DNA of 64,000 bases from Verpa conica (taxonomy: Eukaryota; Ascomycota; Pezizomycetes; Pezizales; Morchellaceae): assembly GCA_033030425.1 (NCBI GenBank), contig JAUFSD010000023.1:124001-188000 (forward strand), written 5' to 3'. This document shows positions 28,931 to 57,163 of the stretch, in pieces. Positions within the stretch are counted from its first letter, which is position 1; the number at the start of each line of letters is the position of its first letter. The notes under the pieces are model-generated. The model was not told the DNA's origin and ran no database searches. It was given only the letters and a program-made list of their open reading frames with translations. Both the position numbers and the translations under genes were made by a program.

Positions 28931-30941
28931 ATGCAGCCAAAGGCCCCAAAGACTTCCACAAAGACTCACCGTCGCTCACGGACAGGTACTAACTCTTTCC
29001 AGCATTCTACAATGATCGCTTCTAGAGTATGCAAAAAACTAACATTTTTTAGGATGCTTCACTTGCCGTCTTCGACGCAAGAAGTGTGATGAGGGAAAGC
29101 CCCTCTGCAAAGCCTGCAAACACCTCGGTCTCAGTTGCGAGTACAAGCGTCCCGTTTGGTGGGGCAATGTCGACCAGCGCAAGAGGCAAAAGGAGAACAT
29201 CAAGATGTTGATCAAGAGAACAAAGCTATCAGAGAAGGTCGCCCAGATTTCACCAATTAGTGCGGATTCCCCTCCCGAACTGTCGCGCTCTTTACCAACA
29301 TCCGATACTCTTTCAGACACCCTTGCCCGAAGGCGATCACTCTCCATGGAGTCCGGTTACACACTGGACCAATACGATATCGAGACCGAGGATGGTGCCT
29401 ACCCAGAGATCCACCACGGACACCCTCACCACGCTCACCACCCATTCCCTCCATTCGAAGTCGACATCATGACCGAGAAACAGACCTACATCAACAGCTA
29501 CGCCATGCCCATGCGACGAGGCTCCACTAGCACCGCTTCATACACCAGCAGCATGCGACGGGACTCAACAGTGGTATCGGGTGGATTCCCAGAGGCCTTC
29601 CAGATGGATGCTGGTATGCCCCACCATGTGCACCACTCTGTGGCCAGCACTGAGAATGGACACCCCGCTGCCGCCGACTATAACTTCTTCGACTTTAACT
29701 ATGGCCAGACTGAGACTCAGACTGAAAAGATTCCTTACATCCCAGTAGAAGAGAACGACCAACACCTTCTCGATCACTTTATCATGAACGTTCTCCCCAT
29801 CCTCTACCCCATCCTCGACTTGAACCTTGACGGTGCAGCGCGACGAGATGTGATCCTTCCAGCCCTTGCCAGCAACGAATGCTACCGACACTGCTGTTTG
29901 AGCATCGCCGCTCTTCATCTTAAGGCTACCCAGGGAGTGCAGGGTGAGTGGATCGACGCAGAGATCACTAGACACAGATATGCTACCATCTCTGGATTGT
30001 GCCAGGCATTGGAGAAGGATACCGATCACTTGCAGATTCTTGAGGCCACTATTGGCATGATCTTGTTCCAGTGCTCAGTTGGCACTTCTGACGATAGCCT
30101 CCCGGATATCCCATGGCACCAGCACTTCCAGGCTGTTAGCAGCCTCGTCAGCAAGCTCGATCTTCCCCGCTTCCTCCAGCCGCTCTCAGAGCTTATCCAC
30201 CCTACCACATCGGTCAACATGACCCTCACCGCCTGGATCGACATTCTCGGTGCTACTATGCTCGGCCGTGCTCCGGTTTTCGCTGATACTTATCGCGAGA
30301 AGCACCTTAGCAATGGCCAGAGCGGTCTCCGAGAACTCATGGGCTGTGACGACCGCGTCATGTACCTTATTTCCGAAATCGCCTGCCTTGAGGCCCTCAA
30401 GAACGACGGTATGCTCTCGGACATGGATCTCTGCGAACACGTTAAATCACTCGCGTACCAGATCGATCTAACCGAGCCCTCATTCGAGGAGCATATGTCT
30501 TCTCCCTCAATGCCCATCATCAGCCCCTCCGGCCACATCGATAACCACCAGCTCACCAAGACCACCAGCGCCGCTTTCCGCTACGCCGCTCGCATCTACC
30601 TCTGCTCGCTCGTTCCCGGCTTCGATCGCACTCAGCCACAGGTTAAGGAGCTGTTGAACAAGCTCACTCACTGCCTCGAGTCTGTTCCAGCTGGTCCTGA
30701 CGGTTTCGATCGCTCGCTTGTCTGGGTTCTTCTTATCGGTGGATCGGTCGCGACTGAGGGATCTCTCTTTAAGCATTTCTTTGAGAGCCGCTGCAATGCA
30801 ATGGGCGAGGATTCGAGGTACGGGAGCTTTGGGAGGATGCAGAAGCTTCTTGAGGTTCTTTGGGAGCGCACGGAAAATGGTCTGGACACCACCTGGAGGG
30901 AAGTTATGGAGAGCAACCAGTGGGATTTCCTTCTGATCTAG
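28931..30941 (+). CDS. Zn2Cys6 (C6) fungal transcription factor, 2 exons
   Basis: Exon 1 (28931-28985) encodes a basic N-terminus. A 67-nt intron (GTACTAAC to TTTTTTAG) leads to exon 2 at 29053-30941, giving 647 residues. The binuclear zinc cluster starts at the splice junction: C20-x2-C23-x6-C30-x6-C37-x2-C40-x6-C47, with the basic run RLRRKKC. It is followed by YKRPVWWGN and a basic QKENIKMLIKRTKL linker, a combination seen in regulators that carry the Fungal_trans_2 type domain. A His-rich stretch lies near residue 140. The remaining ~450 residues are helical and typical of the regulatory middle region, for example HFIMNVLPILYPILDLNL. It acts in the nucleus; its target genes cannot be inferred, since no metabolic cluster adjoins it. 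Without the small first exon the frame would lose its zinc finger, so automatic calls could start wrongly at 29205. Confidence 0.93.
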
Positions 30942-44859: not shown

Positions 44860-45864
44860 CTACGGTTCGCTAAATCGCCAGTTATCATGATCATTAAAGT
44901 TTATCGCACCATCAGTAACCAAGAGGTCATTATCTGGAATACCCTTTACAAGGGCCTTGCAGAAAGACTTGAACTTATTCTTCCTACCTCCACCTGACAT
45001 CAGGTACCAATACTCCCTACTTGACCTTTCTTTCCTCTCATCGTAATACCTTCCATTCAACAGCGGGATCAAGCCCTTTTCCTGAAACCACTTTACCATT
45101 ACCCCATTCCAACTCCACGCCCACTGAAACACCGTCTCGCCATTCTTACACCTAATATCAGTACGAGCCCCTTTAGCCAAAAGCATCTGAATCATCCTCG
45201 TATTACCATTAAACACAGCCCAATGGAGGGCCGTCGTCCCTGTATCCGACTCCACCGCATCGACCTCAGCATTATGATCCAACAACATACGAAAGATATT
45301 CGCATTCCACCTACGATCTCTCCCATACTGCACCGACCCCACCATAGTCAGCGCCGTCGAGTCCGCCCAGGCCTTCGCATTAACATTCGCACCCCTCTTC
45401 AGCAACAACCTCACAACCCTCTCATGACCGCCAAGAACCGCATAATGCAGCGGTGTCCTGTTCGGCATCATGTAAGCCGGCGTGTCGATATACACGCCCT
45501 TGTCGAGTAACATCCTCACAATCTCTAGATGGCCCTTGAGGGCCGCAAAGTGGAGGAGGGTCTCGCGGCTCATGCTGATGCGGAAGTCTTCTTCGCAGTG
45601 GGTGTGGAAACCTCGGTCGAGCAGGAACCGCACGAGTTGGGTGTGGCCCTTGTAGACTGCCCAGTGTAGTGTGCAGTAGCTCTCGTCGTCGTTGCTGGGT
45701 CGTGCCCAGTGCCTTCGTTTGCAGCTCTCTGCGACCCGGAGGAGTACTGGTGTTAGGAGGTAATTGAAGCGACGGTTGATCCGGATAAGTGAGTAGAGAC
45801 CCTCCTGGTCTATGTTCTCTACTATACTAAGGATGAGTTCATTTGGGAGATCTATGAGTGGCAT
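44860..45864 (-). CDS. F-box and ankyrin-repeat protein
   Basis: A single exon of 334 residues. The N-terminus (residues 1-45) is an F-box: PLIDLPNELILSIVENIDQE, with a following helix RINRRFNYLLTPVLLR. Five to six ankyrin units follow from about residue 63 to 275, for example TPLHYAVLGGHERVVRLLLK and TTALHWAVFNGNTRMIQMLL. One of them is expanded by an insertion (SVQYGRDRRWNANI). The last ~60 residues are basic and Trp/Tyr-containing without a known domain. F-box proteins link Skp1-Cullin ubiquitin ligases to substrates; here the ankyrin part would pick the target. Such proteins are numerous and variable in Pezizomycetes. The start ATG at 45864 directly precedes the F-box. The repeats are diverged, in contrast to the homogenised array 6 kb away. 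Confidence 0.88.
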   Translation of the reverse strand: MPLIDLPNELILSIVENIDQEGLYSLIRINRRFNYLLTPVLLRVAESCKRRHWARPSNDDESYCTLHWAVYKGHTQLVRFLLDRGFHTHCEEDFRISMSRETLLHFAALKGHLEIVRMLLDKGVYIDTPAYMMPNRTPLHYAVLGGHERVVRLLLKRGANVNAKAWADSTALTMVGSVQYGRDRRWNANIFRMLLDHNAEVDAVESDTGTTALHWAVFNGNTRMIQMLLAKGARTDIRCKNGETVFQWAWSWNGVMVKWFQEKGLIPLLNGRYYDERKERSSREYWYLMSGGGRKNKFKSFCKALVKGIPDNDLLVTDGAINFNDHDNWRFSEP

Positions 45865-51732: not shown

Positions 51733-54700
51733 TCAGGAGAATAAAGCCAGAATTGCTGCATGACCATTCTCTGTTGCAAGATCAACTGGAGTTTTTCCAT
51801 CGTTATTCCGGATACTGTAGTCGGCGTCGGCTTCTAAAAGCTCTTCGGCGATATTTAAGAACCCCTTCTCGCAGGCGTGGTGTAAAGCGGTGTAACGGGA
51901 ATTGTCAATAGTATCCACGATAGAACCTGACTCTAATAGAGCCTGTACTAGGAATTCATTCCCTTGTATCGTGGCTATGTGAAGAGCTGTGCAGCGTTTA
52001 TCATCCACTTCGTTCGGATCAGCTCCATACTTCAACAGCAGCTCTACTTTTTGTTCGTAACACCGGACTATTGCAATATGAAGAGTCGTATGGCCGTCGC
52101 TGCCCTTCGTATTCACTTCGGCTCCAGACTTCAGCAGCAGCTCTACCACGGCCTCATTCGCATGATTTACCGCAATCCAAAGGGCCGTCCAGCCATAGTC
52201 GTTCTTCGTATTCACTTCGGCTCCAGACTTCAGTAGCAGCTCTACCACGGCCTCGTTTTTCCCCCCTGCCACAAAGTGAAGAGCCGTCTGACTATTACTG
52301 TCCTTCATATTCACTTCAGCTCCAGACTTCAGCAGAAGCTCTACCATGGCCTCGTTTCCCCCCCCTGCCGCAATGTGAAGAGCTGTCTGATGAATATTGC
52401 CCTTCGCATTCACTTCGGCTCCAGACTTCAGCAGCAACTCTACCACGGCCTCGTTCATCTCCCTTGCCGCAATATGAAGAGCCGTCTGGCCGTCGCTGTC
52501 TCTTGTATTCACTTCGGCCCCAGACTTCAGCAGCAGCTCTACCACCGCCTCTTTCGCCTTCTCCAACGCAATGTGAAGAGCCGTCTGGTCATAGTTGTTC
52601 TTCGTATTCACTTCGGCTCCATACTTCAGCAGCAGCTCTACCACGGTCTCGTTCGTCTCCCTTGCCGCAATGTGAAGAGCCATCTGGCCGTCGCCGCTTT
52701 TCGTATTCACTTCGGCTCCAGACTTCAGCAGCAGCTCTACGACGGCCTTGTTCGTCTCCCTTGCCGCAATGTGAAGAGCCGTCTGGCTATAATAGTTCTT
52801 CGTATTCACTTCGGCTCCATACTTCAGCAGCAGCTCTACCACGGCCTCATTGGAAATCCCTGCTGCAATGTGAAGAGTCGTCTGTCTATACTTGATCGCC
52901 ATATTCACCCCGGCTCCAGACTTCAGCAGCAGCTCTACCATGGCCTCGTTCGAAGTCTCTACCGCAATGTGAAGAGCCGTCCGGCCTTGCCAGCCCTGCA
53001 TATTCACTTTGGCTCCATACTTCAGTAGCAGCTCTACCATGGCCTCGTTCTTCCCCCCTGCCGCATTTTGAAGAGCCGTCCGGCCTTGCCGGCACTCCAT
53101 ATCCACTTCGGCTCCATACTTCAGCAGCAGCTCTACCACGGCCTCGTTCATCTCCTTTACCGCAATGTGAAGAGCCGTCTGGCCGTCGCTGTCTCTCGTA
53201 TTCATTTCGGCTCCAGACTTCAGGAGCAGCTCTACCACGGCCTCATTCAAAGTCTTTACTGCAATGTGGAGAGCCGTTCGGCCATACTTGTTCGTCATAT
53301 TCGCTTCGGCTCCATACTTCAGCAGCAACTCTACCACGGCCTCGTTCGAAGCCCATACTGCAATGTGAAGAGCCGTCCGGTCATTCCTGTCCTTCGTATT
53401 CACTTCGGCCCCAGACTTCAGCAGCAGCTCTACCACGGCCTTGCTCGAAGCCCCTACTGCAATGTGAAGAGCCGTCCGGTAATACCAGTCCTTCGTATTC
53501 ACTTCGGCCCCAGACTTCAGCAGCAGCTCTACCACGGCCTCGTTCGCCTTCTCTACCGCAATGTGAAGAGCCATCTGGCCATACCTGTCCTTCGTATTCA
53601 CTTCGGCTCCATACTTCAGCAGCAGCTCTACCACGGCCTCGTTCGAAGTCTCTACCGCAATGCGAATAGTCGTTTTATCACTACGGTCCATCGTATTCAC
53701 TTCGGCTCCAGACCTTAGCAGCAGCCCTACCACGGCCCTATTTCCACTCTCTACTGCAGCACGAAGAGATCCTCTACCATCATAGTCTTTTACATTCACA
53801 CCAACCCCAGCCTTTATTAAAATCTCTGTGGTTATACTATTTCCAGCTGACGCTGCTATATAAACCGCGTTCTGGCCCATACTGTCTACTGCGTTTAAAT
53901 CCACACCGCGTTGTAGAAGGAGCTCGAGGACTGAATTATACCCTTTCCTCGCTGAAACCAGGTAGCATAATTTCCGTCGGTCTGCCAGAAGGTCCCACTC
54001 TTTCCCTGTATCAAATAGTAGTCGGGAGATTTCGAGGTGGCCATTGGTAATTGCAGTGGAGAGCGGTGTTTCACCAGAGATAGACTGAAGACTTGGATCA
54101 GCGCCATTTGCGAGAAGCTTTCTAGCAGCAGATTCTTTTCCATATCTGCAAGCGATAAAAAGTGCTGATCTACCCATCTTATCCAAGCAATCGATGTCTT
54201 TGGAAGAAAGAAGGAGCTCAATCGGTGCGAGATGGCCTTTGGCAGCTGCGCGATGTAATGCGACCCTCCCACTACTGTCCTTTAATGTCTTATCTGCACC
54301 AGCATCTATCATTCGTTTCGTGAGCTTATCGAAGCCTTGCTCTGCAGCGATGTGCAAAGGAGTAGCGCCGGTTCCATCTATCCCTATGGGATCAAAACCA
54401 CGGAGGAGAATTGCGTTCGTAAACTGGTAGAGGTTGAAATAGACAGCAATGTGGAGTGGGGAAGGCTCGACCTTAGACCGTTTCAGGCCAAAATAGAGCT
54501 TAAATCGAAAATCAAGAAGCGATCGGGCTTGGATCCATTCTGAGAGAGCCTTGGCTTCAGGCTTACAGAAAGCAAAGAGAGTATCCTGTTGTTCCTCGAA
54601 GTATGCCTCAGCTTCAAGAGCATGTAAATTCCAGTTCAAGACACAATACGAGTGGAAGCTCCGGTTATCAGAAAGGTCGCAAGAGGCACCAGAAATAACC

Positions 54701-57163
54701 TTCTGGGCATCAGCCGCATTTGTTAGACCCTCCGTATGATCCTCTATTACTTGAGTATTATTGTAGTGCTCTGTATGTGGCGGGGATAACAGAAAATCGA
54801 GAGTAACTAATGTGACTTCGCTATGAGCTTTGGAAATCTCGTAGGCGAAGGGTGGTATTGGCTCTGAGACTGTAGCCTTATTGTCGTTCCACTGGCAGCG
54901 TAAGTATTGTGTGACAGATGTATGAATGACCTGTATTGTTTGATCTTCGAGTATCTCAATCAAAGGAAAACAGGCACTCAGGATTGCTTTCCTAGGGTCA
55001 CCAAGGAGAGGCCAGTCGACATCGTCATTATTACTAATGCGAGCAATTCTCCGACGTTGAGCCCCGAGCGCTGATATGAGCTCTTGAACTTTAAGGGGGC
55101 GATATGCTGTTATGGCCCACAGGAATATGTCTCTTGCTAGTTGGCAATTACTCCCAGAGCTCTCGCTAATTTTTTGTAGGACAATATCATAGTAGTCGAT
55201 TAGGTTCTTAGGCAGATTCCCTAACCTTTTGAAGACGGCAGGAGAGGTGCCTTCTAACTCTAGCTCGTCTATCATAAGCCGAACGTAGAGAAACATCCCC
55301 TAGGGTAAACTATGTTAGGTATTAGATACGTCGGGTGTGATAGTTGAGAACTTACATCTGCACGTTTAAGAATTTCTGCCTCCACTTTCTTTCGAAGAGA
55401 GTTATCTGCAAACTTTTCTGACTTCTGCAGTCGGTCTTCGACGTACTTTTTCAAATCCTCATTAACAAATCCCTTCGAAAATTCAAGTCGAAAGCAAGTC
55501 TCTATCGACAAGTCCTCGATGACCTTCCGAATATCAATCTCCGGCCTGCTGGTGATTACAACGTTAAAACCATTATTAGACCGCATGATTGAGACAAGCT
55601 TCTCCAAGACTAAATTCCGCTCCTCAAAATTACACTCATCAAGAGCGTCGATCACAAGGTATAGTGAAGGAATTCTTCGGAAAATCTCAGTAGCAGCCTC
55701 CCATAGAGAGTTAACCGAGCTAGCTTGATCATGCCCGCTCTCCTCTGCAATGGAACTCAGGATTGAAAAACAAGCCTCCAAAACATCTTTATCAAGTGGT
55801 CTTGTGAGAAGTTGGTGTAGAATTGTTCGAAGAAAGGCAACAGCCGTCCTCTTCCCGCTATTCTCTTGCTTTGAGTTGAAGAAGAAGAAAAGCGGCTGTT
55901 GGCGTGAGGGCAAAGACTTCCGAAGAAACTATATAAATATAGTAAGCAGAATTTTCAGGGATTAAGGATATTTCCAGCGCATACATGAGCGATAAAGCTT
56001 TTTCCATACCCGGCAGGCCATGAGATCCAGAGTAGTCCGAGTCGGCCTGGAATGTTCCTACGATTCAACCAATCATTGTACTCGTCTGTTTGCAAAATCC
56101 ATCCACAGGTCTCAGGAACCCATTTCCTTTCAAACTCGGTGAACTCGGAATCGAAAACGGATGGCGAAAGCCATCTCAATGTTTTCTCCTGCCTTGCGCC
56201 TTCATAGCTATCATTAGCAGCCATATACCGTACGCAGACATTGACGCAATCAACGATTACTAACTTCTATGTGTAGTAACTTGTTCAGTCCAAGCTGATA
56301 ATCTAACAGTATCGTCGACAATTTGGCGGTGCCTATCCATGTTGTTCAAGATTTCCTTGAATTTCTCCGGGAAAGGCTTCAGAATCGAGCGAAAGAAGTT
56401 TACTGTGGTTATGGCCAGGTCAGAACACCACTACTCAAGAACGATCCAAGGAGAACACTCACTAGCTGCATTTCGCCGGAAGTGATTTGCAGCTTTGAAA
56501 CAGAAGTCAAGATAGCCGATATAGACTTCTGTAAGGGCATTCTGCAACGCTGTTGAAGATGGGAAAAGCTCGTGATAAGCCTCATATAGTGGTAGTTTCC
56601 GGCATATCAATGAGAACTGCTCAGCAAGTGTGTCGTATGCGTCATTGTGGTTTTTCAATAGTATAAGGACTAGTTTCATTGGGGCCCATATGGGAGAACT
56701 AAGGCGCAAGTTCGGTTAGTCGCTAGAAATCAGAGCCACCTCTTGTACACCTCTATAACGGGTGGGAATATTTAGTATCGACTCACCCTATTTCGGGGTT
56801 TATCTGAATCACTACTTCAATAACACCCTGAAACTGTTGGAGTGGCGTAGTATAAGTCGATAAGAAGTCAAGAAACTTAGTAGTCTTCTTTGACTTCGAA
56901 CGTCCCTCAATATCCTGGAGGATTCCAATAAGGCCATTTGGATTAGTTGGGCACGAAAGATCTTTACGCTCTTTGTGCGTCAGATTCGAAAGGTGGGAGT
57001 CGATAGCCTTGCGCCAGGGAGGTTTTTCATGAGGTCTAGGGGGTCATTAGCTGGAGGGAATAAGTGGGGGGCGCGAAAAAGCCTACCCGATAGCTGTAGC
57101 AATCGCCCCAGCACCTGCGCTCTTTACGAGGGCTGTAACCTGGTAATCAGAAGAGGGTTTCAT
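51733..57163 (-). CDS. NLR-like receptor: DUF7708-like N-terminus, NACHT, 28 ankyrin units; 7 exons
   Basis: Exons in transcript order are 57163-57087, 57035-56787, 56698-56463, 56402-56261, 56207-55985, 55928-55356 and 55299-51733. The six introns of 51-88 nt all have GT/AG ends and the joins stay in frame to 1688 residues. The N-terminal part (about 27-260) contains VIQINPEIGSPIWAPMKLVL and FFRSILKPFPEKFKEIL, typical of the DUF7708 region of fungal NACHT-ankyrin proteins. The NACHT domain follows: LLWISWPAGYGKS (P-loop, 298-305), FFFFNSK, Walker B LYLVIDALDE (398-407), VVITSRPE and the post-NACHT DGMFLYVRLMIDEL. Ankyrin units fill about 775-1688. These proteins are cytosolic STAND ATPases tied to non-self recognition and incompatibility. 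Odd points: Trp298 replaces the first P-loop glycine, and the start is uncertain. The frame opens upstream to about 57289, so an extra 5' exon is possible; 57163 is the first in-frame ATG. Confidence 0.87.
52093..53775 (-). repeat. Homogenised 99-bp tandem array (17 ankyrin units) within the NLR
   Basis: Seventeen consecutive units of exactly 99 bp (33 residues) have a nearly fixed framework, TALHIA-x4-NEAVVELLLK-GAEVNTK. Differences concentrate at the loop (KDxxGx) and the first-helix positions 13-15. On the plus strand the repeated core is CTTCGGCTCCAGACTTCAGC. Flanking ankyrin units 1-7 and 25-28 are ordinary diverged repeats, so only the middle of the domain is homogenised. The plus strand shows long shadow frames here because every unit lacks stops in the same frames. 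Confidence 0.93.

Follow-up and report, generated by a model that had tools for sequence, protein, structure and literature searches.

Amino acid changes concentrate at contact positions in the ankyrin array of an NLR gene from Verpa conica

The window analysed here, that is, the whole stretch of 64,000 nucleotides of Verpa conica DNA, contains on its minus strand a gene for a fungal NLR with a homogenised ankyrin array. Changes among the units concentrate at ankyrin contact positions, and at positions 13-15 there is more amino acid change than in control arrays of the same genome. The pattern is real and lies beyond chance. In our preferred reading, to which we give a probability of roughly 0.55, the array serves as sensor in a DUF7708-NACHT-ankyrin NLR in which patches shorter than a unit homogenise the framework and selection keeps or favours differences on the contact face. 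The data behind the array analysis are 16 units from one allele.

The NLR gene and its surroundings

The NLR gene lies at 51733..57163 (minus strand) and is proposed to have seven exons encoding 1688 amino acids with no internal stop. The exons (57163-57087, 57035-56787, 56698-56463, 56402-56261, 56207-55985, 55928-55356 and 55299-51733, all on the minus strand) are a hand-built model without transcript confirmation, whose junctions were placed using six GT..AG introns and the open frame. The least certain splice site is the fourth donor (GTAATC).

Pfam identified DUF7708 (PF24809, E 1e-19) at residues 83-227, in exons 2-4 (56284..56866, minus strand), and NPHP3_N (PF24883, E 1.6e-30), a NACHT-type nucleotide-binding domain, at residues 267-437, in exons 5-6 (55545..56113, minus strand); both sets of coordinates were converted by hand. 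NACHT itself (PF05729) matched at E 1.1e-5, slightly under its cut-off, and Ank_2 matched in 14 stretches (E 6.7e-185). Like fungal NLRs (STAND proteins), the product thus has a NACHT-type nucleotide-binding domain and C-terminal superstructure-forming repeats, and because of its DUF7708, NACHT-type NPHP3_N and ankyrin architecture we regard it as a fungal NLR. Read by eye, its Walker A motif is SWPAGYGKS (within 55985-56207, minus strand), in which Trp replaces the first Gly of the P-loop and the lysine and serine are kept, and its Walker B motif is LVIDALDEC. The relative P0084 has GNSGYGKT at Walker A, unlike this protein.

DUF7708, listed in Pfam as a domain of unknown function, is the putative effector or signalling domain. 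Its profile matched two proteins bearing PF17109, which we take to be the Goodbye domain, with a probability of 78.5 and E 1.7e-5, the template being two near-identical sequences. HeLo and Goodbye are the commonest helical NLR N-termini of this sort and are placed among MLKL-like domains, according to the available part of a published survey (PMC9815663). Searched against solved structures, the DUF7708 profile had no convincing relative (best E 1.3), and the AlphaFold2 model of the DUF7708 relative P0105 (5 rows) was weak (pLDDT 53). DUF7708 was not named among the matches listed in a literature search combining it with NACHT and fungi, nor did this gene appear among those listed for morel NLRs or for ankyrin concerted evolution with a binding surface. 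When proteins were searched with residues 1-1037, the part outside the array (7991 candidates scored), no near relative was among the matches listed (best 120 of 200); these were 22-38% identical to the query and covered 13-95% of it.

The genome (45.8 Mb, 25 contigs) has 151 NPHP3_N matches (150 of 263 candidates scored) and 17 DUF7708 matches, 14 of them above the cut-off. Both counts are exon-wise, and one gene may give two NPHP3_N matches. With such numbers, NLR-like genes are many for a 46 Mb fungal genome. About 3.4 kb past the window end and about 10 kb from the NLR gene is a long ankyrin frame (908 aa; G000:C23:191435-191920), and the two possibly form an NLR cluster. Within the window, 44860-45864 (minus strand) encodes a 334-aa ankyrin protein with ordinary diverged repeats and, by eye, an F-box-like start. 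A Fungal_trans_2 transcription factor is encoded at 29205-30941 (plus strand); its best named match is a Morchella importuna protein (82% identity, full length), metagenome proteins reach 88%, and Pro1 is the source name for some of the weaker relatives. This match puts the genome close to the morels, probably within the Pezizales.

Units, edges and variable positions of the array

The homogenised array consists of 16 whole 33-residue units (52105..53688, minus strand). Tandem Repeats Finder returned a single row for the region, 52073-53737, with a period of 99, 16.8 copies and zero indels. The first-pass annotation had counted seventeen adjacent 99-bp units; the 99-bp array stands, but whole units, read from 53688 down to 52105, number 16. 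As divergent edge units flank these at both ends, the seventeenth is an edge unit or a partial one. Compared in pairs, the units average 0.794 in DNA identity (range 0.687-0.909), and the edges of the block are sharp: identity to the unit consensus is 0.49, 0.69 and 0.84 in units -2, -1 and 0, and 0.83, 0.65 and 0.52 in units 15, 16 and 17. Upstream in the gene, 53689..54183 (minus strand) holds the older, non-homogenised units -5 to -2, with a mean pairwise amino acid identity of 20%, and unit -1 (53689-53787), which is homogenised in its second half (0.90 to consensus) but not in its first (0.47). The second half is also the part most alike in units 0-15 (0.88-1.00 to consensus). Divergent C-terminal units 16-18 and the protein end occupy 51733..52104 (minus strand).

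The units are of the type TALHIAxxxxN, spaced by exactly 33 residues. Both ankyrin chains for which alignments were obtained matched the array in register, and DARPins were among the hits. AlphaFold2, run from the single sequence, gave helices and no strands (pLDDT 71.8, pTM 0.53), with ankyrins and DARPins as PDB matches. This model is too weak for mapping surfaces, so we number positions by the in-register alignment of sequences. Open frames on the plus strand inside the array (52071-52895, 52276-53028 and 53068-53718) are probably by-products of the repeated minus-strand codon pattern, a mirror effect.

The first-pass annotation had proposed a framework that is alike and variation at binding positions, namely 2, 3, 5 and 13-15. 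Entropy per position does peak there, the order from the highest being 2, 14, 15, 13, 3, 1, 4, 33 and 5; the positions were correctly named, but 1, 4 and 33 vary too. The variable islands are therefore given here as 1-5, in the loop, and 13-15, where the inner helix ends, and the variable residues include classical ankyrin contact positions. The combination of residues at 2, 3, 5, 13 and 14 differs among all 16 units. To say that nearly all framework residues are shared was slightly generous: the 24 remaining positions equal the consensus in 88.5% of cells and agree in 81% of pairwise comparisons, with further variation at 12 (V/A), 26 (S/Y) and 32 (T/M). The set randomised in designed ankyrins is {2,3,5,13,14,33} (the DARPin set); only 78 of 1,107,568 six-position sets had an entropy at least as high, the DARPin set itself counted. 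By per-codon entropy and dN/dS, variable sites are neither evenly spread along the unit nor mainly synonymous, the two patterns named beforehand as speaking against the proposal.

Control arrays, selection and exchange

Twenty ankyrin loci from the same genome served as a within-genome control. By Tandem Repeats Finder, four loci hold other long homogenised arrays, namely L036 (34.8 copies), L037 (12.2), L041 (19.7) and L046 (6.2), with shorter or weaker arrays in L029, L030, L035, L038, L039 and L043. The pN/pS control covers positions 13-15, since loop lengths differ in the kinase arrays. The ratio of pN at 13-15 to pS at 6-32 was 3.53 in the NLR array, compared with 1.31 in L036, 0 in L037, 0.93 in L041, 1.17 and 0.55 in the two arrays of L046 and 1.11 in L039. 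Synonymous divergence (pS) is nearly equal in the NLR array (0.166), L036 (0.187) and L041 (0.165); the remaining four control arrays are younger or older (0.044, 0.39, 0.70 and 0.49). The excess at 13-15 is thus not common to the control arrays, whose ratios are 0-1.31, two of them at near-equal pS.

Kinase-ankyrin frames are found in three of these loci (L036:1879-6387, L037:3938-6232 and L041:2985-6212). In each, the kinase part is the C-terminal half of the domain (PF00069; E 9.6e-22, 3.9e-22 and 5.4e-24, respectively), joined to a long homogenised ankyrin array of 36, 12 and 21 units. Morchella and Maublancomyces have PF00069-bearing relatives. The three arrays have loops of varying sequence and length (spacing 31-36) and Gly at position 15 in 67 of 69 units, the opposite of the NLR array.

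Gly occupies position 15 in 1 of the 16 units of the NLR array. It is present in 36/36, 12/12, 19/21, 8/9, 17/17 and 5/6 units of the six control arrays (L036, L037, L041, the two of L046, and L039). Among 120 database proteins, 912 of 1200 units have it, as do 1870 of the 2091 units that stand in runs of at least six (the NLR array's own 22-unit run counted). We also compared 72 other repetitive arrays, obtained by two protein searches, one with the non-array part of the NLR and one with a kinase-ankyrin protein of this genome; as the latter search was seeded with such a protein, the sample leans to the kinase-ankyrin type. The scan covered 361 proteins, 120 of which are transcription factors, none listed with an array, and the NLR run entered it as 20 units, flanking units included. 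No array of the 72 equalled the NLR array in variability at position 15 or in the mean over 13-15, and five had an equal or higher ratio of 13-15 to framework variability. Three cockroach arrays peak at 2, 13 or 14, and because positions 2, 13 and 14 are the most variable in insect arrays too, the location of the variable sites alone proves little. The cockroach protein P0013 speaks against uniqueness: position 15 ranks in the top three for variability there, and 7 of the 11 units have Gly.

Diversifying selection at the contact positions (omega above 1) is likely, with modest support. Nei-Gojobori dN/dS was 1.00 over the whole unit; positions 2-5,13-15 had 1.64, the DARPin set 1.28 and positions 16-32 0.48. 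The set 2-5,13-15, which comprises the positions of the first-pass annotation plus position 4, was fixed after the entropies had been seen. In codon maximum likelihood (ML) fits on three trees with separate dS, its omega was 3.11, 2.55 and 3.81 (p 0.0014, 0.0051 and 0.00037), and with shared dS it was 4.6-6.9. The a priori DARPin set gave p 0.21, 0.077 and 0.0077 with separate dS, not significant on two of the three trees, and is poorly determined by ML (full-tree omega 5.35, versus 1.64 with kappa also split). Single sites with p<0.05 in the positive direction were 1, 13 and 26, the last lying outside the islands (p 0.039); no position survived correction for 33 tests. Framework omega was 0.6-1.3 across ML fits, and strong purifying selection on the framework was not seen, so the framework is alike by homogenisation more than by visible purifying selection. 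Since recombination breaks tree-based tests, we also used a tree-free null in which neutral codons were simulated, each on a separate random tree (free recombination). Against this null, P was 0.045 (kappa 2) and 0.020 (kappa 4) for 2-5,13-15, and 0.093 and 0.045 for the wider set 1-5,13-15,33; the DARPin set did not exceed it (0.19 and 0.12).

The same numbers bear on relaxed constraint, under which 1-5 and 13-15 drift freely and the framework is kept alike by folding needs and DNA homogenisation. We think this somewhat unlikely. It would fit a whole-unit dN/dS of 1.00, a free-recombination null that 2-5,13-15 barely exceeds and the DARPin set does not, insect arrays that also peak at 2, 13 and 14, and the five arrays of 72 that reach the NLR array's ratio of 13-15 to framework variability. 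However, L036 and L041, at pS values close to that of the NLR array, do not drift at 13-15, none of the 72 arrays reaches its mean variability there, and omega for 2-5,13-15 is 2.5-3.8. Far less probable is mutational targeting, by which RIP or another local hypermutation would produce the islands. RIP is known to target repeated DNA, and the available text of the Podospora study proposes RIP as diversifying its repeats (PMC1805685). In the present array, C>T/G>A changes from the consensus are depleted in CpA/TpG (8 of 192 cells, versus 79 of 720; p 0.003); RIP was rejected as the source of diversity, as these changes avoid its context. Transversions make up 61 of 140 changes in the islands and 19 of 73 in the rest, which also argues against mutational targeting. 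Support for local hypermutation is mixed. On the framework tree the island synonymous rate was higher (p 0.00085 for 2-5,13-15 and 0.011 for the DARPin set), but on the other two trees it was not (p 0.17 and 0.6). The four codons flanking the islands, a post hoc set, had a synonymous divergence of 0.409 versus 0.127 (exact p 0.0036), carried mainly by codons 11 and 16, whereas in unit pairs with the same residue the island synonymous divergence (0.121) was about that of codons 17-32 (0.125).

The mode of exchange was examined by linkage within units. Loop-island and helix-island distances were uncorrelated (Mantel r 0.12, p 0.13), and neither island correlated with the unit beyond position 15 (r -0.03 and 0.01). 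For codons 6-11 there was a correlation with the loop island (r 0.31, p 0.038) and almost one with the helix island (r 0.20, p 0.051), so the islands may depend on each other to some degree. Among 21 codon pairs tested, 13-14 (p 0.002) and 14-15 (p 0.001) were linked, 12-13 (p 0.027), 12-14 (p 0.027) and 1-3 (p 0.040) weakly linked and 13-15 unlinked (p 0.217); none of the eight loop-helix pairs was linked (all p > 0.2). The longest identical runs were no longer than in column-shuffled units (mean 22.9 versus 24.0 bp), and PHI was borderline (p 0.058, 0.056 and 0.0095 at three widths). Homogenisation by exchange of intact units, as the first-pass annotation had it, is not what these data show, because helix codons are linked to each other while loop and helix are unlinked, and identical runs match shuffled ones. 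For 16 units, the results suggest either an old array or exchange in sub-unit patches.

Active shuffling of whole units as in Podospora HNWD genes, with unequal exchange and fast change of unit number and order, is accordingly quite unlikely to us. The homogenised block is sharp-edged, units 5 and 12 are near-duplicates (90.9% DNA identity), and Podospora ankyrin NLRs are polymorphic in unit number in the available part of the published account (PMC4986451), all as such shuffling would have it. Against it, pairwise identity has no clear tie to unit distance (0.811 at lag 1, 0.768-0.808 at lags 2-15), the islands are unlinked with identical runs no longer than in shuffled columns, amino acid similarity to the consensus (0.756) is below the 0.85 of published cases, and a DNA search of the genome, which skips very common words, found no other locus with a similar array or units that could be the donor. 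Intact-unit shuffling is exemplified by L037 (94% matches, repeated identical loops), the opposite of the NLR array pattern.

In the preferred reading, that of a sensor homogenised by short patches under selection on its contact face, recombination in such patches would keep the framework alike and selection would keep or favour the differences. Each unit would then present its own contacts on a shared scaffold, and the locus may, as the first-pass annotation proposed, generate recognition diversity. By analogy with known NLRs, ligand binding to the contact face may open the NACHT switch, and the N-terminal domain would signal, probably for cell death or non-self defence. A more specific proposal, which we put forward tentatively and consider unlikely, is that the receptor diversifies by sub-repeat parts: loop (1-5) and helix (12-15) contacts would be two independently assorting modules, spread in short conversion patches with the framework DNA kept alike, and the contact face would be enlarged by loss of Gly15. 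If true, contacts would be assembled combinatorially inside a repeat, on a finer scale than the whole-repeat exchange in the published work compared here.

Comparison with known systems

A homogenised framework with variable contacts in an NLR is a known pattern, as the available text of Dyrka 2014 (PMC4986451) reports it. That text describes ankyrin NLRs whose repeats resemble one another, polymorphism in repeat number in Podospora and five ankyrin positions under positive selection; all variable sites but one map to the loop and the inner helices on the concave face, in a Chaetomium protein too. The Verpa gene is likewise an NLR with a homogenised ankyrin array and variable loop and inner-helix sites. 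It differs in that DUF7708 replaces PNP_UDP and in its internal similarity: that source sets high internal conservation at a repeat similarity of at least 85% over at least 100 aa, whereas consensus similarity over our 16 units is 0.756 (our own count, not T-REKS) and the longest run at or above 0.85 is 2 units (66 aa). For the fungal NLR signature named in the first-pass annotation, the domains and the contact-site variation give support; the unit exchange does not, and the array also falls short of the 85% internal conservation. Position 15 is diversified in the NLR array, which may be a further difference. Allele data are available in that study, whereas the NLR array is known from one allele.

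The DUF7708-NACHT-ankyrin architecture is not new: among the 120 matches listed, at least 15 database proteins (P0242-P0245, P0248, P0249, P0264, P0278, P0279, P0285, P0303, P0312, P0319, P0352 and P0356) share PF24809 plus PF24883 and a repetitive ankyrin array. None of them equals the NLR array in variability at position 15. P0242, the only one of the 15 among the 25 of 73 arrays listed, has a TALQAAAGGGH-type unit with Gly15 in 92% and mostly 35-residue spacing, unlike the TALHIAxxxxN unit and exact 33-residue spacing of the NLR array. The unusual points are the variable position 15, which is Gly in most other ankyrin units examined, and the apparent independence of loop and helix contacts. 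With these the locus adds a morel-related case, in which contact modules seem to recombine inside a unit.

In the HNWD/NWD WD40 genes of Podospora (het-d, het-e), exchange also occurs between loci, according to the available parts of Paoletti 2007 (PMC1805685) and Ament-Velasquez 2025 (PMC12222747). Like them, the Verpa gene encodes a NACHT receptor with repeats alike in framework and few hypervariable codons on the ligand face. Unlike them it has ankyrin rather than WD40 repeats, and our DNA search of the genome found no matching second locus. Allorecognition is demonstrated for HNWD/NWD (PMC1805685, PMC12222747), whereas the Verpa gene is known from sequence alone. Fungal NLRs with repetitive sensors are nature's counterpart of repeat-based binder libraries. 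Like DARPins, the NLR array, a natural one, has a 33-residue unit variable at 2, 3, 5, 13 and 14; unlike them it varies also at 1, 4 and 15, which the DARPin consensus design keeps fixed.
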